A stretch of 64,000 nt of DNA. It comes from Bactericera cockerelli. Taxonomy: Eukaryota > Arthropoda > Insecta > Hemiptera > Triozidae. Below, in pieces: positions 5,601 through 63,928 of this stretch. Positions within the stretch are counted from its first letter, which is position 1. The number at the start of each line of letters is the position of its first letter. The DNA is taken from the NCBI GenBank assembly GCA_024516035.1, contig CM044964.1:21987306-22051305 (forward strand), read 5' to 3'. The position numbers and the translations under genes were made by a program. The notes beneath the pieces were generated by a model. That model saw nothing but the letters and a program-made list of their open reading frames with translations, did no database searches and was not told where the DNA came from.

Positions 5601-8600
5601 CAGAAGCAAGCCAATGCTGGTTTACTCCCTGTTTATAGTCCCCCAGCCAGACTGCTTGTGTACTCCCTGTTTATACTACCCCAGGTAGACTGATGTCCTT
5701 TTACATTATTGGCCAATACATTGCTAGAGACATTGCTCAGACAGTATTTTCTGCTCATAAATACAGCTGTTAATTTTTTATGAACATTTTGTTGGTCTAC
5801 TCCCTGTTTATAGTCCCCCATCCAAAAATGTAGTTAGAATGATGTTTATTGCTTCCTCTATGTTTCAGACGGCTACCACGAGAGTTCTCCCTCTCCCACT
5901 CGCTTCTCGCCACTGCACAACACTTCCTCTTCTAGTCCCAACTATTTTCGAACCATCACTTCCCCAGTACAACAGACCTCCAGCTTTACCTCCCATCACA
6001 GTACCTCGCACAACGTGAAAGTGAGTATCAAACGATTTCTCCTTTTATTTTTAATTTTATTAAAAAGATGAATGTTTTACATTCTATTTTCTTTCTTAGC
6101 CATGAAACAGTAGCTACTGTAGACGCTTGTGGTCTGTGTTGTAGCTTGTCCATCCCGTAGTATGCCTACCCTCTGATGGGCGAGAGGTATACTTTCCATT
6201 TATGTGTTTTGTCGAAACAAGCGCACCGGAAAGTATCCCTTACAAACAATAACAATACCATCACCTTATTTATACTGCCCGATTAGGACTACTAAGTCCC
6301 ATTACTCCAGCAGTAAGCCTAAGACGTATTATTAAGTGATAAAATTCCCAACTGGGAGGATAACTTGTCTTGTCCCGGCTGGGTTTCGAACCCGCGACCT
6401 CTGGAATCTTTGGATTCACACAGTGCCGCCTTTACCACGAAGCTACCAGGACAGACAGACTGGGAACAACTGTAACCAAAGTTAAAATACACATTTTTTG
6501 TCGCTCGGGGCATCGAACCCAGTCTCTTCCGCATCGCAAGCGAGTGCTTAACCACTGAGCTAATCGTGCTCTCTAAATATAAGCATCCAAACAATCATAT
6601 TAATTGAGAAAATATTGGGAAAACAAGTGGTAAGTAATTACTTGAGCCAGCCTCATAACTTCGAACCCGCAACCTCCAGGTCAGCAACCAATGCTCTTAA
6701 CCACTGAGCCACGGATGTTTGCTGAGTCATGGACTTTGAACTTTTTTTTGTTGTTGTGGGTTTAACGTCGCTTTCAACTGCATGATTATATCACGACGAG
6801 GGTGTTACCCTCCATTCGCAGATAACTCAGAAACCTGCCACTCACATTAACCTCACCCAACTCAGTTGGGTCGAAATACCAACATCACAAAGTCTTCATC
6901 TGGTTGGACGTAGCTTAACTTCGGTGGGCCTACGAGAACCGGTGCATTCAACGCGCCATCGACGCTAGCGCTGGCTAGACCTAGGACTTAATTTTGTCTA
7001 TTAATTTCGCTCTTAATATTAGTTATTGTAACTTGTAACCAGTCTGGAAGGGGGACTATAAATGAGGTAGTTGAGCAGCATTGGCTTGGTTCTGGGGGCC
7101 CATGTCAATTATTAGCCTCCTTGTAAAGACAGTGGTAGAAGTGCTGAGTCATTCCTCCACTGTCTGGCATTGTTCACGATGACGCCACCCTATGATGATG
7201 AAACTTTTTCACGTGACCATTTTTTCTAAATGAAAAAAAAAACCCCGTTTCTCTGCCTCGAACCCCAGGTCCCCGTCAACGGGTTCACCAGCTACCGCTC
7301 CGCGCAGGACCGCTCCCCCCTCAACTCTCCGCCACTGGTGAGGGGCTCCCCCCTCTCCCCCCTCCACAGTCCCGTCTCCCACTCCTCCTTCACGTTCAAC
7401 ACGCACAACCACGTGATCGACACGTCTAACAACGTGCGAGGTAAGTGTACTACTTAGGCCCGAATATCTAGGTTATTGTAGGATTACCTAGTCAATTATT
7501 TATTTATTTTTATTTAGAAACTCTTTATTAGTAGGTACATATACCTATACAGTAGGTAGAACATACAAATAATGGTACACATTAAATATAAAAATTGACA
7601 ATATTAATAATATAAACAAGAAAAAAAAAAAAATATTTTAATTTAATTTTAATTTTCATAAATGAACGGGGTAAACCCATGTTTATTTGATATAAATATA
7701 GTTAAGATACATAAATATATAATATAGATATATAGAAAAATACAATAAAATTGTTTGATCTTATAAATATAGTTATATTTTATGATTATAACAAAATATT
7801 AAGTTTCCAATATCTTTCTTAATTTATCTTTTATTTCATTGATCGAACAAGAGAAGGGATGTATAGATGAATCAGAATTAGAATCAGAATCAGAATCTTA
7901 TCATTCTATTAAGTGGTTTGTGGAAGGTATAGTTCTTTGAGCAGAAATCTAAGTCAAAAATGTCTTTGTTCCGAGTATTTCGGCCTGTATTTCGAAATCG
8001 AATATTTTCTTTTATTTCAGGCAATAATACTTACATATTATGTCCTAACTAAAGTTATCCTTTTCCATATTTCGGACCCTAATATCCACTTAAGCAATTC
8101 AAGGATAATATATTAGGTTTACAGTAAGATGGATCTAACCTTGCTAAATCAAGCTTTCATTTGTCAGGTAAGTACTACTTAGGCCCGAATTATGAAACAG
8201 GATGAAATATCTAAGATAGTGTAGGATGACCTAGTCAATGTTATCCTGTTTCATAATAGGGCCATAATGTCCACTTAAGCAAGTACAATTCAAGGATATT
8301 ATTATTTTAGGTTCACAGTAAGATGGATTCAACCTTGCTAAATCAAGCTTTCATTTGTCAGGTAAGTACTACTTAGGCCCGAATTATGAAACAGGATTTA
8401 ATATCTAAGATAGTGTAGGATTACCTAGGTTTACAGTAAGATGGATTCAACCTTGCAAAATCATGCTTTCTTTTGCGTGTATAAAAGCAAGGATTGCTGC
8501 AAGGTTGCGTGCTATTCCCCTTATTATTATTTTATTCCCTCTTCTGTTTATTTTATTCCTTTAAGTTAATTTAATTCTAGTTCTGATTATTATATTCTAA

Positions 8601-11600
8601 TTTTGATTATTATATTCTAATAATTCTGTTTATTTCATTCCTTTTTCTCACAGTGTCCACCAAATCATCGTCCACGTCCAACTCGAAGAACTCGTGGGAT
8701 TTTTTAGGCAACAAGTCCAACTCTCTGTTTGACACCGGGAGCCTGATTGCGGGGGACGCTCTCCAACTGATGCCAGTGTACCGCAACAGTACTCTGAGCT
8801 TGAACTCGGAGGCGCCACTGAGCCAGATTAATGTGACAGTTACCTGTGAGTATACACACTAACATATACATATACATATATACTACAGCTGATGCCAGAG
8901 TACCGCAACAGTACTCTTAGCTTGAACTCGGAGGCGCCACTGAGCCAGATTAATGTGACAGTTACCTGTGAGTATACACACTAGCATAATTATACATATA
9001 TACTACAGCTGATGCCAGAGTACCGCAACAGTACTCTGAGCTTGAACTCGGAGGCGCCACTGAGCCAGATTAATGTGACAGTTACCTGTGAGTATACACA
9101 CTAGCATAATTATACATATATACTACAGCTGATGCCAGAGTACCGCAACAGTACTCTTAGCTTGAACTCGGAGGCGCCACTGAGCCAGATTAATGTGACA
9201 GTTACCTGTGAGTATACACACTAGCATATACATATACATATATACTACAGCTGATGCCAGAGTACCGCAACAGTACTCTTAGCTTGAACTCGGAGGCGCC
9301 ACTGAGCCAGATTAATGTGACAGTTACCTGTGAGTATACACACTAGCATATACATATACATATATACTACAGCTGATGCCAGAGTACCGCAACAGTACTC
9401 TTAGCTTGAACTCGGAGGCGCCACTGAGCCAGATTAATGTGACAGTTACCTGTGAGTGTACACACTAGCATATACATATACATATATACTACAGCTGATA
9501 CCAGAGTACCGCAACAGTACTCTGAGCTTGAACTCGGAGGCGCCACTGAGCCAGATTAATGTGACAGTTACCTGTGAGTATACACACTAGCATATACAAT
9601 TATACATATATACTACAGCTGATGCCAGAGTACCGCAACAGTACTCTGAGCTTGAACTCGGAGGCGCCACTGAGCCAGATTAATGTGACAGTTACCTGTG
9701 AGTTGAGTGTGAGTGTACTTACTTACTGACCTACTTCAATCAATCAATAAATCAATGTGTTTCTTTGTGTTATTAAATCACAATTTTAGTGGGTAGCGCA
9801 GAATTGTAGGAGTTTTCCATATCTTAAATATCCCAATATCTTATTTTTGCCTGTAATTCCCCCACTGGTCGCTGCTAACATTATCCCAAGTACAGAGCAG
9901 AACAAATCCTGTCCCACTGGGGATCGAACCCAGGTCACCGTGTACTTACTTACCAACTTACTTACATACTTACTTATCCGTGGCTAGGGCCTAGTCGACA
10001 AATGCCTGCTCCACAGAGGGCCTCCATTGATTTCGGTCTTGTGCTCTTTCTTTCCATGTTCCTGGATCCATTCCCATTCCTGTTATATCCATTTCAATAT
10101 TATCCTGCCATCTTGTTTTTGGCCTTCTTCTGTGAGTATTTCATTTCCATTTATGTCCTGTGATCCTGAGGGGGACGTAGGGCATATACAATATTTTTTA
10201 TTTTATTTTTTCAAGATTTTATTCATATATATTTTTTTTTTTTAAATGTTTAACAACTTTCCAATATTAACATTCCCGCCCCATCTTCACAATCAACACC
10301 CCGCACTTTCTTCCTCATCCCCCTCATTCTTATTGACACGGCTCTGATAATAGACATCTGGACTTTTACCCTCAACCATCCTAGTGTTTGGGATATGGTT
10401 TGTTCCATCGTATACACTGCCGTAACGCACCAGTTAGGCTATTGAAGTATATGCTTTCATTTGCAAGCACGATAATTTCACAATACCAGCAAGTTGGATT
10501 CAACCTTGCTAAATCAAGCTTTCTTAATGTTCACTTTAGGAACTTTAGTTCGGTTTAATTGTTCTATCCACTGTCCATTTCAGCCCCGTTCAAGCTTTCT
10601 TAATGTTCACTTTAGGAACTTCAGGTCGGTTTGATAATTTTTCTATCCACTGTCCATTTCAGCTCCGTTCAAGCTTTCTTATTGTTTACTTCAGGAACTT
10701 TAGGTCGGTTTAATTATTCTATCCACTATCCATTTCAGCTCCGTTCAAGTTTTCTTAATGTTCATTTTAGGAACTTTAGTTCGGTTTAATTGTTCTATCC
10801 ACTGTCCATTTCAGCTTCGTTCAAGTTTTCTTAATGTTCACTTTAGGAACTTTAGTTCGATTTAATTGTTGTATCCACTGTCCATTTCAGCCCCGTTCAA
10901 GCTTTCTTAATGTTCACTTTAGGAACTTTAGTTCGGTTTAATTGTTCTATCCACTGTCCATTTCAGCCCCGTTCAAGCTTTCTTAATGTTCACTTTAGGA
11001 ACTTTAGTTCGGTTTAATTGTTCTATCCACTGTCCATTTCAGCCCCGTTCAAGCTTTCTTAATGTTCACTTTAGGAACTTTAGTTCGGTTTAATTGTTCT
11101 ATCCACTGTCCATTTCAGCCCCGTTCAAGCTTTCTTAATGTTCACTTTAGGAACTTTAGTTCGGTTTAATTGTTCTTTCCGCTTTTCGTTCCAGCCCCGT
11201 CAAAAACCAACGTCCCTGTTCGGTTGTCCCGCAGCCTGGATGGCACCAAGATTCACTTCACTCCCTCCGAGATAGGAGAACACTACATAGATGTGAAGAT
11301 CTATGACACCAGAATCACCGGCTCACCTTTTCGGTAAGCTTTGTGGCAGTCAGATGTATTCTGTCCCGGTAGCTCAGTGGTAAAGGCGGCACTCTGTGAA
11401 TCCAAAAACTCCAGAGGTCGTGGGTTCGAAACCCAGCTGGGACTTGACATGTTATCCTCCTACTTTGGATTTTCACCACATTATAATATGTCTTGGGCTT
11501 ACTGCTGGAATAATGGGACTTTAATAGTCCTAATCAGGAAGTATAAATAAGGCGATATTATTATTATGTACCAACCTCAGTACTTGATCGATAGGGCAGC

Positions 11601-14600
11601 GGACTTGTAACCTGGAGGTCGGTGATTCAAGTCCCGGTTTCAGCGTAGATTTTTAGTAAAGCGAGTTTGAGTATGCTTTGAGCTTCAACCTCGCCCGGTG
11701 TTTACTTTCCACTAAAGAGTGTTATTATTATTACTATAATGGTATGAGTCTCATATTATGTTTAATAATAATAACGTCTGACTGGTAATCCAGAGGTCGC
11801 GGGTTCAAAATTATTACTATGCTTTTTTTTATTTCATGTTTACAGGAGTCACGCGTACAACGCCCAAGCCATCAAGGTAGCTCCTATACCCGACGGAGTT
11901 GTGGGACACCCTGTAGAATTCGAGAGTGAGTTATGATTTGTTTATAATATAAGAAGTTAAGTTAACGTGTATGCTTTACCTGTTTGTAGTGAAGCACAAG
12001 ACCTCTTTAAAATCCTATACCCGACGGAGTTTTGGGACACCCTGTAGAATTCGAGAGTGAGTTATTATTTGTTTATATTATATGAAGTTAAGTTAACGTA
12101 TGCTTTACCTGTTTGTAGTGAAGCACAAGACCTCTTTAAAATCCTATACCCGACGGAGTTGTGGGACACCCTGTAGAATTCGAGAGTGAGTTATTATTTG
12201 TTTATAATATAAGAAGTTAAGTTAACGTATGCTCTACCTGTTTGTAGTGAAGCACAAGACCTCTTTGAAATCCTATACCCGACGGAGTTTTGGGACACCC
12301 TGTAGAATTCGAGAGTGAGTTATTATTTGTTAAGAAGTTAAGTTAACGTATGCTTTACCTATTTGTAGTGAAGCACAAGACCTCTTTGAAATCCTATACC
12401 GAGTTTTGGGACACCCTGTAGAATTCGAGAGTGAGTTATTATTTGTTTATAATATAAGAAGTTAAGTTAACGTATGCTCTACCTGCTTGTAGTGAAGCAC
12501 AAGACCTCTTTGAAATCCTATACCCGACGGAGTTTTGGGACACCCTGTAGAATTCGAGAGTGAGTTATTATTTGTTAAGAAGTTAAGTTAACGTATGCTT
12601 TACCTATTTGTAGTGAAGCACAAGACCTCTTTGAAATCCTATACCGAGTTTTGGGACACCCTGTAGAATTCGAGAGTGAGTTATTATTTGTGAAGAAGTT
12701 AAGTTAACAAACATATGCTTTACCTATTTGTAGTGAAGTACAGGACCTCTTCAGAATTTTTGTGGGTATAGTATAGTATAGTATAGTATAGTAGTGCTTT
12801 ATTTAGACTGTCGGCTCGAGACAAGAAGTCCCATTACGCTAACAGTATAATATAGCACCTCTTTATTTATTGTAAATTTTTACATGATTTTTCGTCTTTT
12901 CGTAAGTCATGCAGCATTACTTCACTTTTCGAATTCCATTTCTTTATACTTTGTTAATGCCGCAACTAGTCGTTACTCATACAAATAACAACTCACTTTT
13001 CCTCACGAGCTATGAGTGGATCCCAAACATTCAAGTACAGAGGAGAAAAATAATCTTAGCATAACCTAGGCAACCAGAGGTTTCTTCCGTAACCTAGGCT
13101 ACGAGAGGTCCTTCCGTAACCTAGGCAACGTGAGGTCCTTCCGTAACCTAGGCAACCGAAGATTATTCTTTTTCTTTCTTTTAACCTTTGGATTCTCTTC
13201 GGTTTCAGTCGACGGGTCCGAAGCCGGTTCGGGTAACCTCGAGATTCTAGTGAACGGAGGTCACGTGACGAGCTTCGTGCGTAACCTAGGCAACCAGAGG
13301 TTCCTGGCCTCGTTTGTACCTCATGAGTCCCGCGTCCATCTGATCGACATGAAGTTCAATGGCGAGTCCTGCCCAGGTAAGAAGTGATAACTTATAGGTT
13401 CCTTTTAAAATCTTGCAAATTTTATTTTTGTCTACTTATTCATTTATCTTAATATATAAATGTCAAAGTCACTGACTGACTGACTGACTGATCATCACTG
13501 TTTCTCCGAACTGGTAAGTCCTAGGAAGCTGAAATTTGGTAGGTAGCTTTGTCTTATAGTCTAGATGTGCAATAAGACGGGATTTTTCGAAATTCCCACT
13601 ACAACACCTGCCATTGGCGAAAAAGGACTTTTTGCTTTCACGGCCATGCCTCGGCCCGCTAGTTTACTATACAATAAACGGATTACACAAGATTCTTTTC
13701 TAACTATTACATTCAATGGTTCCCTAGCTATTAAAATTGTCATTAGTCTTATTTTAATCTTAGAAGCCAAATAAAAATGGCTTAAGATGGGTCCTCTGTA
13801 AACAAAAAAAAAATATGAAAAATAAAACAAATGATTTATTTATTATATAATTATTATGTCTAGCAAAATTTAAATCTAAAATATAAACTTTTAAAACATC
13901 GCGGAGTACCGGACAACAGCTAGTAGTTCCTCTTGTTCGTTTAACGTCTGTATAACACCCAGGTAATACGAGACGGGGTTTTTAACCTCCATTCGCAGGG
14001 ACCTCACAAATCATTTGCGGAGCACCGGACAGTTTCTATTTTAAAGTTGGCTCGTCTTGAACCACATATTTCTATGTGGTTCAAGACAGTGGCGGCTCCT
14101 GACTTCAAGACTAGGTGAAGACAAATTATGCCCAGAAGTATTGAAAAAATAAAATTATTAATTTATCAGATCTTAGTTCTTATGGTCTCATAAACACAGC
14201 CCATTGTAAGTTATGGCTGTTTCCCTGCAGAGCATGATTTTCTCTCATACCAGTTTTGCACCATATAAGTTTTTATAGGTACTTTTTTTGGAGAACACTT
14301 GGTACTTAATAAATAAACAAGGCCAGCAGAACAATTTGTCAACACTTGATCTGGTACACAGCCATTCATTTTTCATAAGCCATTCAGGCTTGAACTGTAT
14401 GGCTGTGGGGCAGGCATTTGCTTTACTTTTTTAGTGGTGGTTATAGTAATTGGAGAAATTGGAGATCCAGTAATCATAATATCTTTCTTATCCTCATTAC
14501 TTCTTAATCTGAATGGGGTTACTTTTAATGTTTGAACCCCATGATTTTGTGGGGATCTCATTGTTTGAAATATTGTTATTGATTATTCATCTTAATAAAA

Positions 14601-16080: not shown

Positions 16081-16113
<33 letters not shown>

Positions 16114-19100: not shown

Positions 19101-22100
19101 TAATATGGAGAATGAAAGTGACACATACCTCAGTTCATCTGGTAGATATAGAATACGAAGAGAAATTTCACTCACTTATAACTGGTATATAATAAGTATA
19201 TAAATTGTATATACGGCCATGTGCTTTATAGCACTCGGATATGTGAAATTGTGGACGTATAAAGTTAAGATGCTTTGGTTGTGTTTGAATTTCGTTCTGT
19301 TGCAAAGTACGTGTTTTAACAATAACACTCTAGTGGAAGGTAACCACCTGGCGAGGTTAATACTCAAAGCATTTTCTACCACCTAACCCTTAGAGTTTTA
19401 ATATTATGTGGTCACAAACTCAAATTAATGAGGAAAAAAATCATGCACTTGGTGGGATACGAACCAACGGATCCCTACGCTACCTGGATCACCAGACTAG
19501 CGCGTTAACCACTTGACTACCAGTGCACGTGTAGGTACTCTGCTAGTTGTACTCTGCGACTCAGGAATGGCTGCAGCCATGTTACGACACGAGGCATGGC
19601 CGTAGATTTATTTTTCCGAATTTTACTCTACACTAATGAGGCATTGTCGTACATCGTTTTGGCCCTGAAATCGGTGCCACGGCCCATTGATTGAGCGGTG
19701 CCGACAAAAACATTGTAGGTATTCAAAATTTGCTGACAGTTGTTTGTAAAGGATACCTTTTTTTTATGGCTTTAACGGCAGGATTCTCACACTGTGAGCT
19801 CTTCCACCCAACCTTCCTGTGCCTTCGTGTTGACCCAGTACCTAAATGGGAAGTATTGTGCCTCTTCTCACCCATCAGAGGAGAAACATACTACGGGATG
19901 AGCTGGCTACAACACAGATCACAGGCGTCTACAGTAGCTCCTGTTTCATGGCTACGAAATAGAAAGGCTGTGAAACACTAATCATAAAGAACCGATCTCA
20001 GTAGCTTGATCGATAAGGCGGCGAAATTGTAACCTGGAGGTCGGTGGTTCAATTCCCGTGGTTTCAGCGTAGATTTAGAAAAGCGAGTTTAAATAGTTGT
20101 GATATCACGAAAGTGATTAACACAAAAAATATGATAACTTGAAATAGAAAAACGTTGATTGGTCACTGAAGTTAAGAAACGTCAAGCGAGTCTAGGACTT
20201 GGATGGGTGATCATTCCAATTCGAAACCTCGTGATGCAGGCGATTCCGGTCCCACTCAGGCTGGGTGAGTAGCTGGTTTGTGAGTTTCATTAACACAAAT
20301 ATGATAACTTTAACTAGATGATCTTGAGAAAAAATAAATCGAACGCAAGTCACCGTGTGTTCAAGCCTTCTATGGTAGTTTGCTACACTTCCACCATGAC
20401 TTGTATGTAAATGTATATATTATGTACCTTTCTATATAATTATATAACATAATATATATTAATGTGTTTTTTTGTGTTATTATATCACAATTTTAGTGTG
20501 TAGCGTAGAATTATAGGACTTTTCCGTATCTTTAATATCCCAATATCTTATTTTTACCTATAATTCCTTCACTGGTCGCTGCTCACATTAAAGCAGCTAC
20601 TCATTTTCGCTCACGAGGTATGAGTGGACCCCGAACACCCAAGTACAGAGCACAGAAAATCCTGCTCCGTCGGGTATCGAACCCAGATCACCGTGAGTGA
20701 AATGCCTAGCGCGCTAACTCATTCGGCCACGGTGACTACTATGTACTTTGTATAAAGCTATACAATAGGTACAGGTACATATATATGTACCTATTGTATA
20801 GCTAAAGTTCCACCTTGGCAGGAAGGGTTATTCACTCCTGAGATAATGAGATCGTACCAGCCAGCGTAGGTATGTCAGAACTCACACAGGAAGCTTGTTC
20901 CTTACAGAATGGAATATATTATTGGGATGCCATAATGAACTACCTAGAGTTAATTGAGAACTCTGTTGTCTACCTGAAGCTCGTAGTGGTGTGTGATTCA
21001 CCTCGCTGAGCGTTGCTTAACTTGGGTGATCCTCCGAGAACCGGTGCATTAAAGGAATCTCAAAATTAAAACAGCCATTCTGAAAACCCTGCAACCATCA
21101 TCAGGTTTTATAATAATAATAATAAATACGAGAACCGGTGCATTAAAGGAATCTCAAAAGTTAAACAGTCATAAATAAAAGATTAGCTGCTCAAATAAAT
21201 TGAAAGTTATCTTATTAATTTATTTACCTATTGTATATTTTTTTTTTTTTAATTTTATATACAGGGTGTCCCACCAAACTTGGACACCTCAAATTACTCG
21301 GCCCCTGAAAGAGTTTTTGAAAAATAAAAAAATCTAGGGTACATGTGCTAATTATGCGGTTTCAGTCATGAATTTTTTATTATACAGGGTGGTTCAAAAG
21401 TCAGAAATTGAGGTGTCAACTTTCGATTTTTAAATGGATCGACCTGAATTTTATTTGATAATTTTACTTCTAAATGGTTCTTGAGTACTTTTTTAAACAA
21501 AAATTTTACATACAGGGTGGTTTTTTTTCGACCAATTTTTTTTCTAAATCTCGAATAACTCAAGTTTGTTTATTTTTTTCGATAACAAGAATAGAGAGTG
21601 TTTGTGTAATGAAAACACGCACTTTCAATTGGCATCAAATTTTTTTATACAGGGTGGTTCACAAGTGAAATAATGACTTGATTTTTTTTAAAACTGAGTT
21701 TTTTTAATTTTTTATTTGGGATTAATAATTCTAACCTAATTTTACACATTTTTTGTTGATCATATCGAAAAACAAAACTAAAGTGTTGTACTGGGTGAGA
21801 CATAATTTTTTTGTGACACCCTGTATATGGGCAGTCAAAGAGACGTAAAATTAAATATAAAACTAAATGTGTAAGAAAAACTTCGATTTTTAATTGTATA
21901 AAAAAGTTATGGTGTTTTAACTAATATTGTCACATGGACCACCCTGTAGATATTTTCTTAAAACATCATATGGGTAGTCGAAATTGTCTAAAATTCAACG
22001 AGGAGTCCAAATCTGAAAGAAAAAAATTAATTTAAAAAGCCATTTTCAATTTTGTGTCTACACCTACCTACTTTTTATTTCTAGTTTTAAAATCATTCAG

Positions 22101-25100
22101 TGTGTACACCAAATTGAAAATGGCTTCAAAATTTGTGTTTTTTACTTGTTTTTCCCCACGATTCGAAGTCTTCGTTGAATTTTATACAACCTCGAGTACC
22201 CACATGATAGTTTAAGAGAATATCTACAGGGTGGTCCATGCGACAATATTAGTTAAAACACCATAACTTTTTGATATCATTAAAAATCAAAGTTTTTCTT
22301 GCACATTAATTTTTATATTTAATTTTACGTCTCTTTGACTGCCCATATACAGGGTGTCACAAAAAAATTATGTCTCACCCTGTACAACACTTTAGTTTTG
22401 TTTTTCGATATGACTAACAAAAAATGTGTAAAATTAGGTAAGAATTATTAATCCCAAATAAAAAATTAAAAAAACTCAGTTTTAAAAAAAATCAAGTCAT
22501 TATTTCACTTGTGAACCACCCTGTATAAAAAAAATTTGATGCCAATTGAAAGTGCGTGTTTTCATTACACAAACACTCTCTATTCTTGTTATCGAAAAAA
22601 TTAAACAAACTTGAGTTATTCGAGATTTAGAAAAAAAATTGGTCGAAAAAAAACCACCCTGTATGTAAAATTTTTGTTTAAAAAAGTATTTAGGAACCAT
22701 TTAGAAGTAAAATTATCAAATAAAATTCAGGTCGATCCATTTAAAAATCGAAAGTTGACACCTCAATTTCTGACTTTTGAACCACCCTGTATAAAAAAAA
22801 TTTCATGACTGAAACCGCATAATTAGACCATGTACCCTAGGATTTTTTATTTTTCAAAAACTCTTTCAGGGGCCGAGTAATTTGAGGTGTCCAAGTTTGG
22901 TGGGACACCCTGTATAGGTAAATAGGTATGTTTGTTCATTTCTGCAATTGAATTTTGTTTTTATAAAATAAAGAGTATATACCTATTGAGAAAAAAATTG
23001 TGTTAATCGCTTTCGTGATATCACAACTACTCAAACTCGCTTTACTAAATCTGCGCTGAAACCGGGACTTGAACCACCGACCTCCAGGTTACAAGTCCGC
23101 CGCCTTATCGATCAAGCTTCTGAGGTCGGTTAGCTGCTCCAAGAAATCGGGCAGCTTTCTGTTGATCAAATACCTGAATGTGATCGAAACGTGATTGAGA
23201 AAGTTGCTAAAGTTGCTCAGCTAATGAAAGTAAGTTCTCATCGATATGTCTGCAATTAAATGGCTATAGGCAATAGGACTGGTGAAAAAAAAAAAAACAG
23301 GTAGACACACCATATTATGTAGGTAAATGGTTATAGGCAATATGGTTGTTGGAAAAAAAATAATAATAATAAAAAAAACGGAATATAGATAGAACCACAT
23401 AGGTAAATGGTTATGGGCAATATGGTTGCTGGAAAGAAAAAAATGTAATATAGATAGAACCACATAGTTTATAGGCAATATGGTTGCTGAAAAAAAAAGA
23501 AGCCATATATTGTAGTTAGGTATATCGTATACCTGATCATAAATACACGAATAGGTACATACACTTATACATAGGTAAATGGTTACAGGCAAGAGAGTCT
23601 CTGCAAAGCTTGTTGAGTTTTTTCATAGACAAGTTCAATGAAAAAAGTAATAGCTTCAAATGATTCTATTACTTCCGATACCATCGGAGAAAGGAGGTAT
23701 CAAAGCATTGTGATCACGTTCGGTGAAATTTTAAATTAATATTTATCCTCTCGCTCAAAAAAGTTTGTCATCATATTTCTATTAATCACTTTCGTAATAT
23801 TACAACTACTCAAACTCGCTTTATTAAGTCTACGCTAAAACCGGGACTTGAACCACCGACCTCCAGGTTACAAGTCCACCGCCTTTTCGATCAAGCTACT
23901 GAGGTCGGTGGAACTGACAAATAACATTTAATCAAAGAACAAATCATCAATAACACCAACCTGAACAAATTGGACAACAGTGAAACAGTCAACAATGAAG
24001 TAGCGAAAACACCAAAGTAGATTCAATGACAACAATAAAAGTGAGAGCCTTATTGATGAAACTACTGAGGTCGGTTTTAAGGGGCACTTGCAAATGTGTG
24101 TTTTTTTTTTTTGTGAATGACTGATTCTATAGAAAATATACCAGAAAAAGCCATTTGCGCCATCAAAATCACGTGAAACACCTTAGCGGACACGTATTTG
24201 TGACGTCACATTTACCGAGTTGCATTTTTCAGTCTACATGTTCTTATGGGGCTCTTTTTCCTGTAGTCCAGAGATCCTGAGTTCGATTGCCGGTTGGAAT
24301 ATCCTTCTTCGCGAAATAAGTTCGCGAAGAAGTTATATGTCACTGAGTAAAGACTTTCATCTTGTTTCATAGTTTCACACAAAATGATCGGTAGATCGGT
24401 TCATCTGATTATTTAGAAATCGCAGGTCGGATCTCTAAACATTCCTAGACCTATCTGCAACTACCCATCGTGTTTGAAAACGTTTGCAAAAACTTTCAAT
24501 GTCCAATTCTCGACGGATGCAATTCCTTATTCGTTTGATGACCATTTTTTTTGTGACTTGAAAATTAAATTAATTAACTGACTCTTTGATAATTCTATTG
24601 ATGAAATACTTTACTTGTAGAAGAAAAAAAAAATTGGTTTCAAAAAATATATAGACTCGTATCATCATCATAGGGTGGCGTCATCGAGAACGATGGTAGT
24701 CAGACAGTGGAAGAATGACTCAGCACTTCTACCACTGTCTTTACAAGGAGGCTAAGACCAAGCCATTGCTGGTCTGCTCCCTGTTTATAGTCCCCAAGCC
24801 ACACTGCTGGTCTACTCCCTGTTTATAGTCCCCCAGCTAGACTACTGGTCTACTCCCTGTTTTCAGTCCCCCAGCCAGACTGCTGGTCTACTCCCTGTTT
24901 ATAGTCCCCCAGCCAGACTTTAAATATCAAACACAAACACCACGGCCGAGGTTTGAAGAACGCCAATACAAAGAAAGAGACATCTACTATACTCGTATAG
25001 TAGATATTAACCGACCTCACAGTAGCTGGATAGATAATGCGGCGGACTTGTAACCTAGAGGTCGGTGGTTCAAGTCCCAGTTTCAGCGTAGATTTAGTAG

Positions 25101-46100: not shown

Positions 46101-49100
46101 CTAGATGTACATGAATATGAGAACATACCTGGACAGCTGTTTCGAGCTTATTTGCTCTCATCAGCAGGTAACAGTTCTGAATATCCATGTCATCAACTAA
46201 TTCTTCTGATGGCAATGCTCCCAACACGCTGGCAGCATTGCCTCTCTGATTGTCATGCTTATTTTTGTTACTAGGTGACTCATTGATTGTGTGTTCCCTG
46301 TCTTCTCTATCATCTTTTTTTCTATCTCCTGAATCCATTTCTTTCCCTCGTCACACCACGTTCCCATTGTCTCCACTGCCATCACAACAAGCTCTACTCC
46401 TCTTGATTTTATCATTGAGTACTTTAAGTGTTTCCTTTGAAATTTCAATAATATTTATTTCAATAAAGAGAGAGATGGCCAGCGCCGATGACGCTTTGAA
46501 TGCACTGGTTCTCGTAGGATCACCGAAGTTGAGCAACGTCCAGTGAAGTGACGACTTCGTGATGCTGGTATTCCGGCCCAACCCAGGCTGGGCTGGGTAA
46601 GGTTAATGTGGGTATCAAGTTTGTGAGTATTCTGCGAATGGAGGATAACACCCCCGTCGTGATATGCAGTCGAAAGCGACGCTAAACCCAAATTAAATAT
46701 GGATAGATTAAGAGCTATTTTTTTGTATTATTATGTCACAAATTTTAGTAGGTAGGATTGAAATTATACGATATCTAATGCTAATGAATACATCATATAT
46801 CCAACCAACCATCACATTCTCATCTCGTAAAGCCGCCATTGGTTGTTGCCAACTCTACATCTACCTATTCTACCCGAATTGTCCTCACGAGGCTAGATCT
46901 TATTGTATAATCTCCGTGCTAATTGAAGCACATAAATATAATAATAATAGCACTCTTTAGTGGAAGGTAACCACCAGGCGAGGTTAATGATCAAAGAATT
47001 TTCTACCAATTAACCCTCAGAGTTTTATTATTATGTTGTCACAAACTCAAATTAATGAGGAAAAATTCATGCACTGGGTGGGACTCGAATCAACGGATCC
47101 CTACGCTACCTGGATTACCAGACTAGCGCGTTAACCACTAAACTACCAGTGCAGAGTATTTAACCAGAGTATTTCCCAATCGCCTGGTCACTTGTATTTG
47201 TGATACTAAAAATAAATTTTAAATAATAAGTAGCAATTAAGATAGACGTAAGTAGTTAAGGTAGAGTTAAGATTGACGTTCAATTCAATTATTTATTTAT
47301 TGTACAAAATGTTACATGGACATGTGGTACAAAAGTCAATATTAAAATACGTTGTGACGTTGTGTACTTACAAGTTTTGTAATTTTCCACAATAAAAAAA
47401 TACATTATTATTATTAAAAAAAAAAAAAATACATTATAACCACGGCCATTTTTCCCACCCCTTTTCTCAGGCCCATCCAAGCGATCCCTAGCCACCCAGA
47501 TCTATTCGGAAGGCTCCGGCGGCGCGTCCGGAATCTACCGAATCGAGTTCCTGCCCACCGAAGTGGGCAGCCATCTCGTGGAGGTCACCCTGGCTGGGGA
47601 CAAGCTCCAAGGCGGCCCCCTCGTGGCCAAAGCGTACAACGCGGCCCTCATCAAGGTCTCGGACGTGACGGGCGGCATCGTCGGCACGCCGTGCCAGTTC
47701 AAAGGTGAGTTCAATATATTTTTTTTTTAAGTAGTCACTGTGGCAGAGCGAGTTAGCGCGCTAGCATTGCACACATGGTGACCTGGGTTCGATTCCCAGC
47801 GGGGGAGATTTTTTCTGCTCTGTACTTGGGTGTTCGGGTCCACTCATACCTCGTGAGGAAATATGAGTAGCTGCTTTAATGTAAGCAGCGACCAGTGGCA
47901 GAATCTTAGGCAAAAAATAATACAAGAAATTGTAAATTAAAGTGGTAAAGTCTATGATTCTGCGCTACCCACTAAATTGTGACATAATAAACACAAAAAA
48001 AGCATTATTATTTTTATTAAATTATTTTTTTTTTTTGGTTGAACTCAGGAAAAAAATCTTTTAAAGACACCCAGGACAATCCGACTTGGGGTGTGGGATT
48101 TCCACCCACTAAAAACCCTCTAAAGAGTTCAATATAATTGGACAGAGTTTTTTTTACTCAAAATCAATCCCCTAAAATTTTCCTGGCCATGCCTCAGCCG
48201 CTTCATCAGGCTGAGACATGGCCGTTATCGTTTTATTGCTGTGGATATCATCAATTTCTTCTACCCAACAAAGGGTTGAGTGGAAGAGATTGGCAACCCT
48301 TGCTTGGGTGGAAGAGATTGCCAACACTTTGTTGGGTGGAGGGGATTACCAACCTTAAGTTGGGTGGAAGAGATTGTCAACCCCTTGTTGGGTGGAAGAG
48401 ATTACCAACCCTAAGTTGGGTGGAAGAGATTGTCAACCCCTTGTTGGGTGGAAGAGATTGTCAACTTGTTGGGTGGAAGAGATTGTCACTTGTTGGGTGG
48501 AAGAGTTTGTCAATCCTTTGTTGGTGACGAGATTGCCATAGGCATAACTCAGGAATAACCCCTTGCACTCTTCAATTTCACTCTGTCACCTCATTTTTGT
48601 CCTCTAATATAAATCTCTTCCAATTGTCCTCATTTCATACCTCAATTGTCCTCATTTAACCTCAATTGTCCTCATTTAACCTCAATTGTCCTCATTGCAC
48701 CTCAATTGTCCTCATGTGGAGCCGGAGAGGGTCAGCTCGAGATCAGCGTGAATGAGGAGAAGTGCCCAATCACGTGACCGTCATAGGAGGCGGCAAGTGT
48801 CTGGTGTCCTTTACGCCTCAGCACAGGTGAGAGAAAATGGAGGTGTTCTTGTTTTCCTTCAGAGGAGAGAGAAGAGAGAGTTTTGGGAAATATATAGAAA
48901 AGTTATGAGAAATATATTATAGAATATATGTAGGTAGAGACCTTTGTCTTGTGTCCTTCACGCCCCAGCACAGGTGAGAAAATGAGGTGTTCGTGTTTCT
49001 TGAGAGGGAATAAAGAGAGAGTTTGGAAAATATATAGGTAAAGTATGAGAAATATATCTAGGTAGATAGTTTTGTCTTTTTTTTTAGTAAGCTCTGATTG

Positions 49101-52100
49101 GTCTTGTGATTTTTTATAGTTTTGTCTTGTGTCTGTCACTTTCAACACAGTTGAGAAAAGAAATGAGTGTTTCTGTTTTTTTGACCTGAGTTTTGGGAAG
49201 TATACAGGGTTTGTCCGGAAAGTAATAGGACTCATTTTCTTTCGCCACGACTGTACTTCGGAGCGTGCGCGCTGCGACTGGATTCGGTAGAGTAGGTTCC
49301 TAGCTAACGAATGAGCGGCTGGTCGGTTGTCTCCGAGTACTTGGAGAGTCAGGACAGGCATTTTCGCGCGACGCAATTCTGTGGTGCTAGACGAAAGTGC
49401 AGCGTTCGTTAGAGGAGAGGTACGCGATTAAATTCTGTGTGAAACTCGGTAAATCTGCGGCAGAGACGTTTGATATGATCAAGCAGGCTTACCCAGGTGT
49501 TGCTTTAGCAAGAGAAGGGTGTGTTTCGGTGGCACAAAGCTTTTTTGGAGGGCCGGGAAGAGGTCGCTGATGAAGACCGTGCCGGAAGACCTTCGACTTC
49601 GACAAACACCGACAATGTGACTCGTGTGCCCGAAGTTTTGAACTCAGACCGTCGATTAAGTATTCGTTTGATTGCCCAGAAGTTAAATTTATCAAAAATT
49701 GTGGTTCATGACATTCTGACATAGCATTTGAACATGCGCAAGGTGTGCGCGAAGTCTACAGTAGCTCCTGTTTCAGGGCTGCGAAATAAAAAAAGGCCGA
49801 GAAATACTCATCTTAAAAAAAGGCTAATACCTACATAGATCAATTTTGAGTAGTATTGTGACATCACTGAAGTGATTAAGAACAAGAAATAATGACATCT
49901 TTCAGATTAAAACTGTGAAAAACAACAAGCAAAAAACGCCCCAATTTGTAGATCTATGGAGTTGTGTAACTTAATTAGTAACCCACCACATAACACATAG
50001 TATTATGTCTGACTCTATACAATCTATAGAATCAATTAAAACCTACCTTTTAAATCTGTTGAGCTTAAATTAGTCATAGGCATTTTTTTTAAGTTATTAG
50101 TTTTAGATATATGTATAAGAATAGTAAGTTGTAATAATACTTTAAGTTAGGGCACATGTATTAATTGGGTAATAATAATAATAATCTTTTTTATTGTATT
50201 TTTACCTTTCGGTGTATACAATGTTTCTACTTACTTACCTACTAGCTTACAATTAAATAATTTCCCGTTATTTATTTAATCTGTCAACGGGTATTTCCCG
50301 ATGACAGATTAAACAAAATAAATAAATTAACACAAATATGATAACTTTCTGATTCCTGTTTATTCTATTTCAGCAAAGCTCACGTGATTGACATAAAGTT
50401 CAACGGAGAGACAGTGGAAGGCTGTCCTCTCCTGTACTCAATCTCGGACATGAGTCGGGTACAGGTTAATCTCAACCACCTCCAGCTGATCCCTGTGAGC
50501 GAAGTGGCCAGCTTTCACATGAATGTGGACAGCAACACGTCGGCCCAGCTGTCTGTGGCAGTCACGGGTAAGTGTGTCTCTTTTAGGACCCGTGAGACAT
50601 TCTAGGGTTAATACAATTAGGTGAAATCAGATAATAATGGGGGCCGTTAAACAGGAACAAGACCAGTGTCTCGCTAGAGGACTATAAACAGAGAATGGAT
50701 TAACCAACCTTAACAAGCCAGGCTAGCTTGTAGTTCCCGAGGGTTTAAAGGCTTATAAAGCAAAAGCCCATGTTCTCACGATGATTGATCTCACATAGAA
50801 ATATGTGGTTCATAGAACGAGACAATTTTTCTCGAGTTTGGCTGAAGACCATATTTTTTTCAACAAATACTTGAAATATATTTACCTATTTACATATAAT
50901 CATCTTCTTTTTTAATCACAAAGTTTCAGTAGGGTCCTGAGTGCGTTAGCATGTGTTCGACTCTAAAGACCATCACTCCCTCAAGCAGTAGCCAAGCTGG
51001 CTACAACATATCTTATATCCACAGATGATATCTTGATATCAGATGGATTCTATTACTCATCAGAATGTTCAATAATCATAATTGTTTATCGCTATTCAGA
51101 ACAACAACACCTATCACACAGGCCTATCCCTCCTATGACGCATCTTCTTGACATTCCTATGCTTCCTACTTAAGTGAGTCTTAAGCGCGTAGGACTGTTG
51201 GTCTTCAGAGACCCACACTTTTCCTGTTGGGTGAGGACTTAACGTGCCCCTAGCAGAGGAATATCTGCGAGACCAAAGAATTGACGTCTTCTTAATTAAA
51301 ATCAAAAAGACCCACTATCATAAGAGAATCCATAATAATAATAATATGTGCCTATCCAATAATAATAATAATAAAAATAATACTCCTCAGTGGAAGATTA
51401 TTATTATTATTAAACATATTAGATTAGATGAAGTTTTATTTACATAGAATATATAGGTACATACATAGAAATTGACAGTAATAAAACAAAACTTGATCAA
51501 GAGCGGTGCTAATGCCAACGGCATTCTCTTCCTATTTTGATTATCTTCCACTATGTTGATTATCAAGATAATCATGAGGTTAATGCTGAAAGCATTCTCT
51601 ACAATTCAACCATCAAAGTCTTATTATTATGTGGTCACAAATTCAAATAAATAAGGAAAAATGCATGCACTGGGTGGGATTCGAACCCTACGCTATTACC
51701 AGACTAGCGCGTTAACCATTTGACTACTTCTGCACGAAAAAATATGTATGCACTATTGCAGCGGTTCCCAACCTTTTTAGCTTGGGGCCCAATAATATTT
51801 TTGAAACAATTTTGCGGCCAACTTTGTACTTATTTTGCGCATTTTAATATTATTTTTTTAATATTAAATTTTAATATTTATTCTTGAGTTTCGGACCCAC
51901 TGGTTGGGAACCGGTGCTGACTATTACATAAATTTGCGATGATTCTGCTTTTCAATTCGCCTCTTGGTCTGTGCCATTGTGTTGGTTGGATCTTACAGTT
52001 CTTGAGTGTTCAGAGAATTACTAAGAACAATACAACCAACTGTTGTGTGACATAAAATAAAGAGCTGTATAGTGTGACGAATCGTGTTAGATGTGTTTCT

Positions 52101-55100
52101 CAGTGGTGTGTGTTGGTGTTAGAAAGAACAAGTTCTATATTGTTCATAATTAATTTTATAACTATGCAAAATATGAGACTCAGGGCGAAATTAATAAACA
52201 AATTCTATATCACAAGTCATTGCTAAGCGTCGGTTTTCCGGTTTCCCTATCTATCCTGAAAAGTACACACCGTATTTATAGAGGAACACGATAGACTATG
52301 ATGTTATTTAATGCATAATAAACATTATTATTATTACACAGTACGCAATTCGTGACTTGCGCCACAGAGGTATTATAAAAACGTCTATTAATTCCACCCT
52401 AGGATTCATTATCATGTGGACTAACTCATAGGCGCAAGATTGAAAGCTTGACTTGTTTATACCTATCATAGACTTTAAAAGGCATCATATTTAAAAGACA
52501 TAATAATAATAATATCGTATTATTTATACTGCCCCATTAGGACTATTAAGTCTCATTATTCCAGCAGTAAGCCCGAGACGTATTATTTTGTGATAAAAAT
52601 CCCAACTGGGAGGATAACTTGTCTTGTCCCGGCTGGGTTTCGAACCCGCGACCTCTGGTATCTCTGGATTCACAGGGTGCCGCCTTTACCACTGAGCTAC
52701 CGGGACAAACAATATGTTATATTGGATTTCAAACTTTTTGAAATTATGTATTAGAGAGATACTGAACGTTGCATGTGTTATCATATCTTGTGTTAATCAC
52801 AATCTTGATATCGCAATTAAGTACTCAAACGCACACTGCTGCTCTCAAGTCTCCGTTAAGCAACCACCGAACTCCAGGTTACGAGTCTACCGCCTGATCA
52901 AGCTGTACTATTTTACAGTCAAGTAGTCAACGCGCTAGTCTGGTAATCCAGGTAGCGTAGGGATCCGTTGCGTTGGTTCGAATCCCACCCAGTGCATGGA
53001 TTTTTCCTCATTAAATTGAGTTTGTAACCATAATAAGACTGAGTTTGTGAATAATAAGACTCTGAGGGTTAGCTGGTAGAAAATGCTTTGAGCAATAACC
53101 TCGCCTGGTGGTTACCTTCTACTAAAGATTTTTATTATTATTAGTATTATTACTTATTACCTATAAATAGTTATCACATTTTTCTGTTAGATAAACTTAA
53201 AATATCATTGACTTAAAGACTTATCAAGTCATATAGCGCACGAGAAGACGAATAAAGACTGATCGAGCTACCTAATAAATGTCATTTACTGAAAGATGGC
53301 TTGAATAAATACGACAAAAAATAGCTACCATCTGAAATGTTACTTGTCACATTACTGCTCTTACTAGTTGGTATTACACAGGTATTTCACTGTATAATAC
53401 TTATATAAAAAATAGTACATATACAGGGTGTCCAAGTTTTATTTGTAAAAAATTTCAGAATCAACTCCAGGAGACATTCTAAGACTAAAATAATCTTAGG
53501 TAATTTTTCGAAAATTCAAAAATCATCATATCATCATAGGCCCGGGTGGCGTCATCGTGAACGATGGTAGCCAGACAGTGGAGGAATGACTCAGCACTTC
53601 TACCACTGTCTTTACAAGGAGGCTAATAGTTGATAGTCTGGCTGGGGACTATAAACAGGAATCAAAAATGAAAAGAAAAAAATAAAATAAAAAAAATCAC
53701 TTGAATGAAAAGTTTTCACCTGAGAAATGAACTTTAATTTGTTGAAAAGAAGTGAAAATGTTTAATGAATATTGAGTAATAGAATAAATAGAATCGTTGG
53801 CGTTAGGAAGGGCATCCAGCCGTAAAAATTGTGCCAAAACCAACCAACCTCAACCATGAGGTTGAACAACCTCGACCCTGCTCAAGCGGGATAAGACCGA
53901 GTAAAATAAGAAGAAGTAAATTTACCAAGGAAATACCTTCTAGATACCTTATATTTATGGCTGTATGGGTTGTTTTTTCCCAATACCAAAAAATTAAATA
54001 TACCTTATATTTTGAACCTATTATTTGCTTTCAAAACTGAGTTATTATTTTGGTCATATCTCCGTTCGACGGCATTTTTCGAAAAATGATCTGAGAATAT
54101 TTTAGTCTTAGAATGTCCCCTAGAATTGATTCTGAATTTCCAAAAGGAACTGGGACACCTTGTATAGGTATTTCATTAAATATACTTACCTATATGTATT
54201 ATACAGGGTGAGCATAAAGTCTCACCCCACCCCCCGTATCTCGAGAATGGCTGTAAATACAAAAAAACGCAAAAACCCATGTTCCTTAATTTTTAGGGGG
54301 ATTAATTTTCAGCCAAATTTTTTTTCCTTCATGGCCCCAGTCAGGCTGGGCATGGACCAAATTTAAAATCTTAAATAGAATGGTATGTCTTGTGGCATAA
54401 TGTTTTAAAGGTCTCATAGAGAAAAGTTCAATACAACAAATTTCAGTGAGCTACGACTTACCGTTCTTGAGATACATGGTCGGACGTCCTGCGTAATATC
54501 CATATATTTTGACCTATAACTCGTTAACCGTAAATTATAGAAAAATGAAATTTGTTGATAATAACTCCTTATGACAAGCCCTGTCGAAAAAGGTATAACT
54601 CGACATACTCTTTTGATATTAGTTTCTGGTCGGTTTCGTCAGCCAGCCGAACGAACAGTCCGAAAAATTTTAACGAAAAAAACAAATCAAGTTTTAACTT
54701 GTTCGAAAGCCATAAGGAGTTATTATCAACAAATTTCATTTTTCTGGAATTTACGGTCAACGAGTTATAGGTCAAAATATATGGATATTACGCAGGACGT
54801 CCGACCATGTATCTCAAGAACGGTAAGTCGTAGCTCACTGAAATTTGTTGTATTGAACTTCTCTCTATGAGACCTTTAAAACAATATGCCACAAGACTTA
54901 CTATTCTATTTAAGATTTTAAAGTTGGTCCATGCCCAGCCTGACTGGGGCCTTGTAGGCAAATTTTTTTTGGCTGAAATTTAATCCCCCTAAAAATTAAG
55001 GAATACGGGTTTTAGCGTTTTCTTGTATTTTCAGCCATTCTCGAGATACGGGGGGTGGGGTGAGACTTTGTGCTCACCCTGTATACCTACCTATATGTAT

Positions 55101-58100
55101 TATATACATACCTATATGTATTACCTATATACCTACCTATATTATCTACTTACCTATATGTATTGTATACCTACCTACATATATTATATACCTACCTACC
55201 AATTTTATGTACGAGTATATCGTGCTTAAACTGACCTTCACAAACTCTCGTGCATTGCAAACGTAATAATAAAAAAATAATAAGACCAAGATGTTTTAAT
55301 GTCGGAACACGGACCAGAAACTTGTGCAGAAATCAGAAGATGCAATCTAACATCATGCTGCCCTGTAGAGAAATTCCTACGTCACGTCAGTTGAAGAAAA
55401 AAAATTGAAATCGGAGCAAAAAAATGTTTTTTTTTTAAATAAATCGAACACAATATCTCCGATTTCTAATATTAGAAAATTTTCGGAAGTAACATACTTC
55501 CAATTTCTAGTATTAGAAATGTTTCGGAAGTATCTTTACGAAATCTACGCTGAACTCGGGACTCGAACAACCGCGACCTCTAGGTTACAAGTCCGCCACC
55601 TTATCGATCAAGCTACTGAGGTCGGTTGATTATATTAATATTTTTTTTTTTTTTTTTTTTTTTGAATGAATCTACGGGGGTTGACCCCATTTATATTATT
55701 CAATAAACTCCATTGTTTTCAGGTCCATTTATTATATTGTCATAAAACACAAGATAATTTATTTTTTATCCGTTTTAAAAAGAAGGAATAATTTATTATT
55801 TATAATATTGCTTTTTCTTTGTGTTATTTCACAATTTTAGTGGGTAGTGCAGAATCATAGGACCTTACCACTTTAATTTACAATATCTTGTGTTTGTTTT
55901 GCCTAAGATTCTGCCACTGGTCGCTGCTTCACATCAAAGCAGCTACTCATTTTTCCTCACGAGGTATGAGTGGACCCCGAACATCCAAGTACAGAGCAGA
56001 AAAATTCCTGCCCCGCTGGGGATCGAACCCAGGTCACCGTGCGTGCAATGCCTAGCGCGCTAACTCACTCTGCCACAGTGACTACTAAATTTGTTACTAT
56101 AATATTGTTAATTAAACGCCATGTTTTTCAGGTCCCACGCTGGAGCTCCCGGTCAAGGTCACGGGTAACGTTCACGACGGATTCACGGCAGAGTTTTCCC
56201 CCCAGGAGGTGGGCGCCCACAACATCTGTGTCGACTACAACGGTCACCCTGTATACGGCACCCCCTTCAATGCTAAGGTGTACGACGCTCGCAAAGTTCA
56301 CGTGGGATCCATACCACAAGGTAATGGATAATTTGTATTCAAAGAATTACCTACTTATTTATTTATTTTATTTATTTTATTTATTTTATTTATTTTCTTT
56401 TTTTTATTTATTTTATTTATTTTATTTATTTTAGGTATATTATTTATTTTTTTATTTTATTTATTTTATATTATTTATTTTTTTATTTTATTTATTTAGA
56501 AACTCTTTATTAGTTGAACAAAATTATATACAGACAAATAATTGTAAAAATTAAATATAAAACTCACAATATTAATAATATAAACAAGAAAAAAAAATAT
56601 AAATATACATATGTCCTAACTAAAGGGCGGGGTTATTGCCTATGGCAATCCCTTCCACCCAACCCTCCTATCAGAGATTCTAAAGGGTTGCACATGCGCA
56701 CAACATCTGTGTCGACTACAACGGTCACCCTGTATACGGCACCCCCTTCAATGCTAAGGTGTACGACGCTCGCAAAGTTCACGTGGGATCCATACCAAAA
56801 GGTAATAATAATAATAATATCGCCTTATTTATACTGCCCAATTAGGACTATTAAGTCCCATTATTCCAGCAGTAAGCCCAAGACGTATTATTATGTGGTA
56901 AAAATCCCAAATGGGAGGATAACTTGTCTTGCCCCGGCTGGGTTTCGAACCCGCGACCTCTGGATTCACACAGTGCCGCCTTTACCACTGAGCTACCGGG
57001 ACAGACGAATGGATAGTTTGTATTGAAAGTAATTACCTATCAGAGTTTCTAAAGGGATGCAAATTGAAACTGAAAATTGTTCTCTTACATCAAGATGTCT
57101 CATTTATCCAGGTTTCACTTATAAAGAGGTTATTTTCCCTTGGAGAGAGGCAAATTGAGCCTGGAAATTATTCTGGTGTCTCATTTATCTAGTTCTCTTA
57201 TATCAAGGTTCCTCGTTTATCCAGTTCTTTTATATCAAAGTTTCTCATTTATCCAGTTCTCTTATATCCAAATTTCTCTTGTAAAGAGTTTATTTTCCCT
57301 TGGACAGAGGCAAATGGAGCCTGGAAATTATTCTGGTGTCTCATTTATCCAGTTCTCTTATATCAAGGTTTCTCGTTTATCCAGTTCTCTTATATCAAAG
57401 TTTCTCATTTATCCAGTTCTCTTATATCCAGGTTTCTCTTGGTTATTTTCCCTTGGAGAGAGGCAAATTGAGCCTGGAAATTATTCTCTTATATCAAGGT
57501 GTCTCATTTATCCAGTTCTCTTATATCCAGGTTTCTCTTGTAAAGATATTATTTTCCCTTGGAGAGAGGCAAATTGAGCCTGGAAATTGTTCTCTTATAT
57601 CCAAGGTGACTCATTTATCCAGTTCTTTTATATCCAGGTTTCTCTTAGAAAGAGATTTTTTTTTTTTTTAAGTGGGGTTTAACGTCGCTTTCAACTGCCA
57701 TGGTCATATCACGACGGGGGTTTTACCCTCCATTCGCAGGAAACTCACAAACCTGCTACTCACATTGACCTCACCCAGCCTGAGTGGGGCCGGGAAAAGC
57801 CAGCGTCACGAGAATTAGAATTTGAATGGTCACCCATCCAAGTCTTAACCTCGCTGGATGTCGCTTAACTTCGGTGTTCTGAAGGGAACCGGTGTATTCA
57901 ATATGCCATCGACGCTGGCTAGAAAGAGATTATTTTCCCTTGGAGAGAGGCAAATTGAGCCTGGAAAATGTTCTCTTATATGTCAAGGTGTCTCATTTGT
58001 CCAGTTCTCTTATATCCAGGTTTTTCTTGTAAAGAGATTATTTTCCCTTGGAGAGAGGCAAATTGAGCCTGGAAATTGTTCTCTTATATCAAGGTACGTC

Positions 58101-63928: not shown

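Follow-up and report, generated by a model that had tools for sequence, protein, structure and literature searches.

Why do the edges of several exons in one gene recur in the introns beside them, and does their number call for a process aimed at splice boundaries? The window (here the whole stretch of DNA analysed, 64 kb in length) raised this question when a sequence-only reading of it described copied exon edges at exons 5, 6, 7, 8, 9, 12, 14 and 15.

The filamin gene and its repeated exon edges

Splice-bounded open frames over the whole window placed 16 exons of a filamin gene on the + strand, and the Pfam filamin repeat PF00630 (filamin/ABP280) was matched with 103.6 bits in exons 7-11 and 107.9 bits in exons 13-16. 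A protein search with exons 2-11 as query, under length limits that left out longer filamins of any phylum, returned 24 proteins, and the seven organisms named were a tick and six insects (Halyomorpha halys, Polyplax serrata, Periplaneta americana, Anopheles coluzzii, Nesidiocoris tenuis and Dendroctonus ponderosae). Protein identity over exons 6-10 was 72% to Halyomorpha (159 aa), 61% to Periplaneta (163 aa) and 60% to Polyplax (163 aa). For exon 9 alone Periplaneta came top at 85%, and Halyomorpha, Polyplax or Nesidiocoris reached 84%. Judged from these comparisons, the nearest named relatives among the matches are insect proteins, and the DNA is probably that of an insect, perhaps one close to the true bugs. 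The protein joined from exons 6-7-8-9 is colinear with Halyomorpha filamin P0010. The exons with a repeated edge are:

8654-8845, + strand: filamin exon 6, donor edge repeated (splice-bounded open frame; its end matches Halyomorpha filamin P0010)
11195-11333, + strand: filamin exon 7, acceptor edge repeated (splice-bounded open frame; protein comparison)
11846-11925, + strand: filamin exon 8, donor edge repeated (splice-bounded open frame; protein comparison)
48717-48826, + strand: filamin exon 12, donor edge repeated (a single-base slip interrupts the frame; start without AG)
56132-56320, + strand: filamin exon 14, donor edge repeated (splice-bounded open frame; protein comparison)
62082-62285, + strand: filamin exon 15, acceptor edge repeated (splice-bounded open frame; protein comparison)

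One frame slip each was found in exon 1 (2437-2666) and exon 12, by eye at single-base runs. The slips, and the AG missing at the start of exon 12, look like residual consensus errors and could also be real damage. Exon 12 adjoins a 20-bp tandem array (48621-48715), and by eye this array holds the four other occurrences in the window of a 15-base word from the start of intron 10 (45978-45992). Within exon 3 there is an in-frame 15-bp coding repeat, SSFDK-like (4802-4920).

At 6 of the 16 exons a repeat in the adjacent intron spans the exon boundary. It is the donor that is repeated at exons 6, 8, 12 and 14, and the acceptor at exons 7 and 15. The repeats comprise 2 to 9 copies, and most units measure 76 to 171 bp. 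The repeated stretches, together with two that were set aside, are:

8040-8475, + strand: local repeat in intron 5, with 27 bp in common with 7439-7465, where the intron begins
8761-9703, + strand: exon 6 donor array, 8 units of 120-124 bp, 96-97% identity
10514-11200, + strand: exon 7 acceptor array, upstream of exon 7, 9 units of 76-79 bp
11882-12757, + strand: exon 8 donor array, 7 units of 121-131 bp
13062-13156, + strand: exon 9-like repeat, 3.5 units of 27 bp
48798-49057, + strand: exon 12 donor edge and downstream copy (48798-48917 against 48945-49057, 83%; spacing 147 bp)
56215-56325, + strand: exon 14 donor edge, first copy
56696-56806, + strand: exon 14 donor edge, second copy, 98% identical to the first; spacing 481 bp
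61746-62187, + strand: exon 15 acceptor edge, three copies, exon parts starting at 61774, 61945 and 62082; spacing 137-171 bp

Exons 5 and 9 thus dropped out of the series described by the sequence-only reading, and the other six stood. The repeated stretch beside exon 5 (7439-7465) contains 2 exonic bases and is otherwise intron that recurs at 8166 and 8360. The 27-bp units ahead of exon 9 resemble a piece internal to that exon, at about 13279-13305 (82-93% identity, 32-41 bits). Two weaker matches were excluded from the edge count as possible chance, one between the exon 10 acceptor region (45798-45819) and the upstream intron (44508-44529; 22 bp, 91%, 32 bits), the other between the exon 14 acceptor region (56102-56135) and its upstream intron (55693-55726; 34 bp, 82%, 36 bits). 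Both are perhaps older decayed copies or the product of chance.

The six repeats are built differently. The exon 6 unit takes in the donor with the last 85 bp of exon before it and about 37 bp of intron after it, and in each extra unit an AG stands ahead of the copied exon piece, which gives a potential mini-exon of 79 nt. All seven extra copies have three changes in common relative to the exon. At exon 7 the unit is nearly all intron, made up of the intron end, the acceptor and only about 6 first exonic bases. Units 1, 6, 7 and 8 of this array are identical, and the last unit carries 6 changes, clustered before the acceptor, as compared to 7 in the inner unit 3. The exon 8 unit combines the last 44 bp of the exon and the donor with about 80-87 bp of intron. 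In the second half of the array two unit types alternate, marked by 5- and 8-base deletions, and divergence is greatest in the last unit. By eye, the end of the intron part of this unit resembles a dispersed repeat found elsewhere in the window. Near 49120 exon 12 has a third, decayed donor copy in which the GT is changed (by eye).

At exon 14 the second copy is split by an insertion of about 200 bp and resumes at 57008-57039. Part of the 481-bp spacing of the two copies consists of sequence with matches to dispersed elements at other places in the window. The insertion is itself a dispersed repeat that arrived later and has seven other matches in the window. This element (56805-57006) has 82-90% identity to stretches starting at 6245, 11360, 36260, 40105, 45544, 52500 and 63175, and it is tRNA-like in appearance.

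Origin of the copies

The units, the edges involved and the divergences differ from exon to exon, which points to separate founding events, and the claim that one event cannot explain all of the repeats was borne out. Within an array the picture is different, as variants shared among copies, together with identical or alternating units, suggest that a single founding duplication was followed by amplification and exchange among the units, and not by further copying of the exon. Tandem duplication is also common here in general, since local direct repeats cover 13-18% of intron positions in the window (12 settings). Microhomology at the breakpoints was considered as a clue; by eye it followed no consistent pattern and was left unused.

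We have to ask whether the copies are real. Assembly artefact, which the sequence-only reading had held to be the main alternative, would mean that haplotypes or noisy reads were joined head to tail, and false exon gains are reported from some assemblies in the excerpted text of PMC9516828. The frame slips in exons 1 and 12 and the missing AG of exon 12 point to an imperfect consensus, which counts in favour of an artefact, as does the resemblance of exon 15 copy 1 to an alternative coding version (see below). However, the three large arrays hold 7-9 units with variants in common, which misjoined haplotypes do not readily give, and at exons 6, 7 and 8 these shared variants argue against an artefact. 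One of the exon 14 duplicates was interrupted by a later insertion, so this duplication would have a history and would not simply be an assembler join; for exon 14 at least, an artefact is unlikely. As an explanation of the whole set we regard it as very improbable. The false exon duplications of PMC9516828 are alike in that extra exon copies lie beside the true exon, and according to the same excerpts they stem from haplotypes or read errors, whereas the divergence of the filamin units and the later insertion argue for real copies.

It is likely, in our judgement, that the repeats are minisatellite-like tandem duplications across the exon-intron boundary, known in amphioxus as 'mirages', that arose in separate founding events and have been tolerated. 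At each of the six exons a separate local event would have duplicated a segment (most of them 76 to 171 bp) with one end in the exon and the other in the intron. The duplications at exons 6, 7 and 8 would then have grown to 7-9 copies and been homogenised by unequal exchange or slippage. Their persistence may reflect near neutrality, as the splice site beside the intact exon is kept and the same mRNA would still be possible, the extra copies leaving with the spliced-out intron. The sequence itself shows the repeats, the distinct units at each exon, the variants that copies have in common and the failure of the tested extra sites to keep the reading frame, whereas the mechanism of duplication, the neutrality and the unaffected splicing are all three what we infer from it.

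Splice sites and coding content of the copies

The extra splice sites were intact in 24 of 24 copies at exons 6, 7, 8, 14 and 15 and in one of the two extra copies at exon 12, or 25 of 26 overall. At first sight this fits a proposal made for this locus earlier, that selection retains redundant splice sites, and also a variant in which it retains frame-shifting mini-exons such as poison exons. The 25 intact sites, counted with the decayed third exon 12 copy, are in favour of such selection, and so is the presence of both AG and GT in the exon 6 and exon 8 units, which can be read as mini-exons of 79 nt and of 67 or 62 nt. The intact letters say little, however, as the splice dinucleotide columns of the three arrays would be invariant by chance with a joint probability of 0.48, about as often as the overall divergence predicts for young copies. 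In addition, the exon 8 units decay by deletions of 5 and 8 bases, which are not multiples of three. Extension of the exon to an extra site met a stop in all 24 cases tested (14 donors and 10 acceptors; exons 6, 7, 8, 14 and 15, with exon 12 left out for its broken frame), and among the sites tested only the exon-proximal ones kept the reading frame. None of the 13 mini-exons that the exon 6 and exon 8 units could give (79, 67 or 62 nt) is a multiple of three in length. The copies tested are thus neither replacements for the exon ends nor in-frame cassettes. Selection for redundancy lost its footing with these results, and we consider it extremely unlikely. The simplest view of the sequence is that splicing probably uses the exon-proximal sites and discards the extra copies along with the intron.

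The coding content of the copies agrees less readily with neutral duplication at one place. Exon 15 copy 1 (61774-61879) differs from the exon (62082-62187) by five changes in 106 bases, all of them synonymous and in third positions, and the five are clustered within six consecutive codons. This would be odd if the copy was never translated. It is the pattern expected of two translated versions; a former alternative exon, a second haplotype or chance could lie behind it. A codon comparison of copies with exons 6, 8, 14 and 15, which used the four of the six extra exon 8 copies that are without deletions and left out exon 12, gave 9 synonymous and 5 replacement changes when distinct changes were counted. 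We do not claim a general coding constraint on the copies, as one constrained and one free copy should give a mixture much like this.

Duplication at exon edges in the window and in other genomes

The sequence-only reading had put the edge repeats far above chance and had proposed a process aimed at splice boundaries. It had also named an equal density of local copies in non-exonic DNA as the observation that would count against this. By covered bases the edges were indeed not enriched within the window: 6 of 32 were covered, whereas rotation gave an expectation of 4.2-5.7 (12 settings, P 0.28-0.54). Counted by events, with each array collapsed to one unit, the outcome was different, since 6 of the 28 events run across an edge against an expectation of 1.1 (P 0.0009, a value that is optimistic, like the other event P values, because the window was chosen for the feature). 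The events were those of at least 45 bits, and their units were entered by hand, with a sum of 2343 bp as compared to a program estimate of 2595. Leaving out five pairs called transposon-like by eye, as was done in some rows, gave 6 of 23 events against 0.84 expected (P 5e-5). All six were found among the 13 events with units of at least 60 bp, and none among the 10 shorter ones (0.16 expected). Addition of 20 short arrays, hand-entered, partly rounded and partly overlapping, gave P 0.0004. When the DNA available for duplication was shrunk to 37, 20 and 12 kb, P rose to 0.001, 0.011 and 0.06, respectively. Over the whole range of assumptions, from 58.5 down to 12 kb taken as able to hold duplications, the six events compare with 0.8-2.9 expected (P <1e-4 to 0.06). 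An excess above chance appears by events and not by covered bases, and the proposed process has the event counts leaning its way and the covered bases against it.

A mutational process in this lineage with a preference for exon edges, where tandem duplications would begin more often than elsewhere, would account for the event counts. It might act through the repair of breaks or difficulties in replication at the transition from GC-rich exon to AT-rich intron, or through transcription-linked structures. The enrichment of events (6 of 28, and 6 of 23 without the transposon-like pairs) supports it, and persists if only 37 or 20 kb could hold duplications. Donor as well as acceptor edges are affected, and like structures are described for several amphioxus genes in the excerpted texts of PMC3087553 and PMC3902484. 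To the extent that six edge-crossing events among 23-28 exceed uniform placement, some edge bias may exist, and this weighs against purely neutral duplication. On the other side are the missing enrichment by covered bases, the P of 0.06 at an effective length of 12 kb and the selection of the window for the feature. Moreover, copies anchored in a conserved exon should remain recognisable for longer, which alone may be enough to inflate the count. For these last two reasons we treat the event-level excess as a lead and not as a result; a bias of tandem duplication towards exon edges is hinted at rather than shown, and a process of this kind, by whichever of the routes named, is in our opinion unlikely. 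The stronger form, in which a genuine bias in this insect lineage has its genes continually yielding spare splice sites and frame-shifting mini-exons beside their exons, on which alternative splicing and changes to introns could draw, and exon 15 copy 1 was once translated, we hold to be distinctly unlikely.

The reading that we prefer, tolerated minisatellite-like duplication across the boundary, has a counterpart described in lancelets. As excerpted, PMC3087553 describes mirage minisatellites in Adh3 and the globins BflGb6 and BflGb9, as tandem repeats over a 5' or 3' exon boundary with units of 10-72 and 150-160 bp, in which AG/GT is retained in many copies and RT-PCR suggests regular splicing. 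TnC (troponin C) and PGBD5 are added to the list in the excerpts of PMC3902484. The filamin case is alike in that one exon boundary is spanned, 5' or 3', the units measure tens to about 160 bp, splice signals occur in many copies and the units may likewise evolve in concert (PMC3087553, PMC3902484, in the excerpted parts). In its sequence the filamin gene shares the main testable structural features of mirages, namely the boundary span, the involvement of either edge and splice signals in many but not all units. Homogenised inner units, with the end units left out of the process, are a further mirage feature, and the filamin arrays have shared variants and identical or alternating inner units, whereas their end units are mixed, the last being the most divergent at exon 8 and not at exon 7. 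The two cases differ in their setting, as the mirages lie in amphioxus genes and the present repeats affect six exons of a single insect-like filamin gene. Likewise, regular splicing, haplotype length variation and somatic instability are features of the amphioxus mirages, whereas the filamin case is known from one assembled sequence.

Related structures have been reported outside lancelets. For human genes in segmental duplications, the excerpted text of PMC2812944 gives 162 alignments with repeats at boundaries and 27 intron modifications that were retained on inspection. Minisatellite expansion at exon-intron boundaries is common to both cases, but the human internal tandem repeats, which are variable, alter exon/intron annotation and form new introns (PMC2812944, same excerpts), whereas the exon structure of the filamin gene is apparently unchanged. 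Tandem genomic duplication is also described, in excerpts of PMC3443670 and PMC2891723, as a genuine route of intron gain that acts on AGGT-bearing exon segments. A short duplication bearing splice-like sites is again the common element, and the difference lies in its fate, as in intron gain an exon acquires an intron from the duplicated segment, whereas the filamin copies sit within introns that were already present and no additional intron is evident.

Among the matches listed, all openly licensed PMC papers, the name "mirage" is applied to amphioxus genes in PMC3087553 and PMC3902484 as excerpted, and nothing directly relevant was found on exon-edge repeats in insects. We claim no first, as boundary-spanning repeats have already been reported in human genes without the name (PMC2812944, in its excerpted part). 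The structure is already known in lancelets, and what sets this case apart is that an insect-like gene carries it six times. So many boundary-spanning repeats in a single gene of a non-cephalochordate would mean that "mirages" are no peculiarity of lancelets. A repeat-rich insect genome could also properly test the edge preference of tandem duplication, which bears on the origin of introns and alternative exons.

Repeats of other kinds are present in the window as well. Two large inverted structures pair with themselves, at 21258-22916 (1.66 kb, 92%) and at 54187-55099 (0.91 kb, 87%), and since both by eye end in ACAGGGTG they are probably fold-back elements. Inverted arms of 426 bp with 89% identity (1-426 and 1953-2378) enclose the region 1-2378. 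The stretches at 42367-42702 and about 49200-49750 look like pieces of mariner-type transposase. A tandem array at 40983-42112, well away from exons in the 32-kb intron 9, holds a 40-bp unit 28 times (95%).
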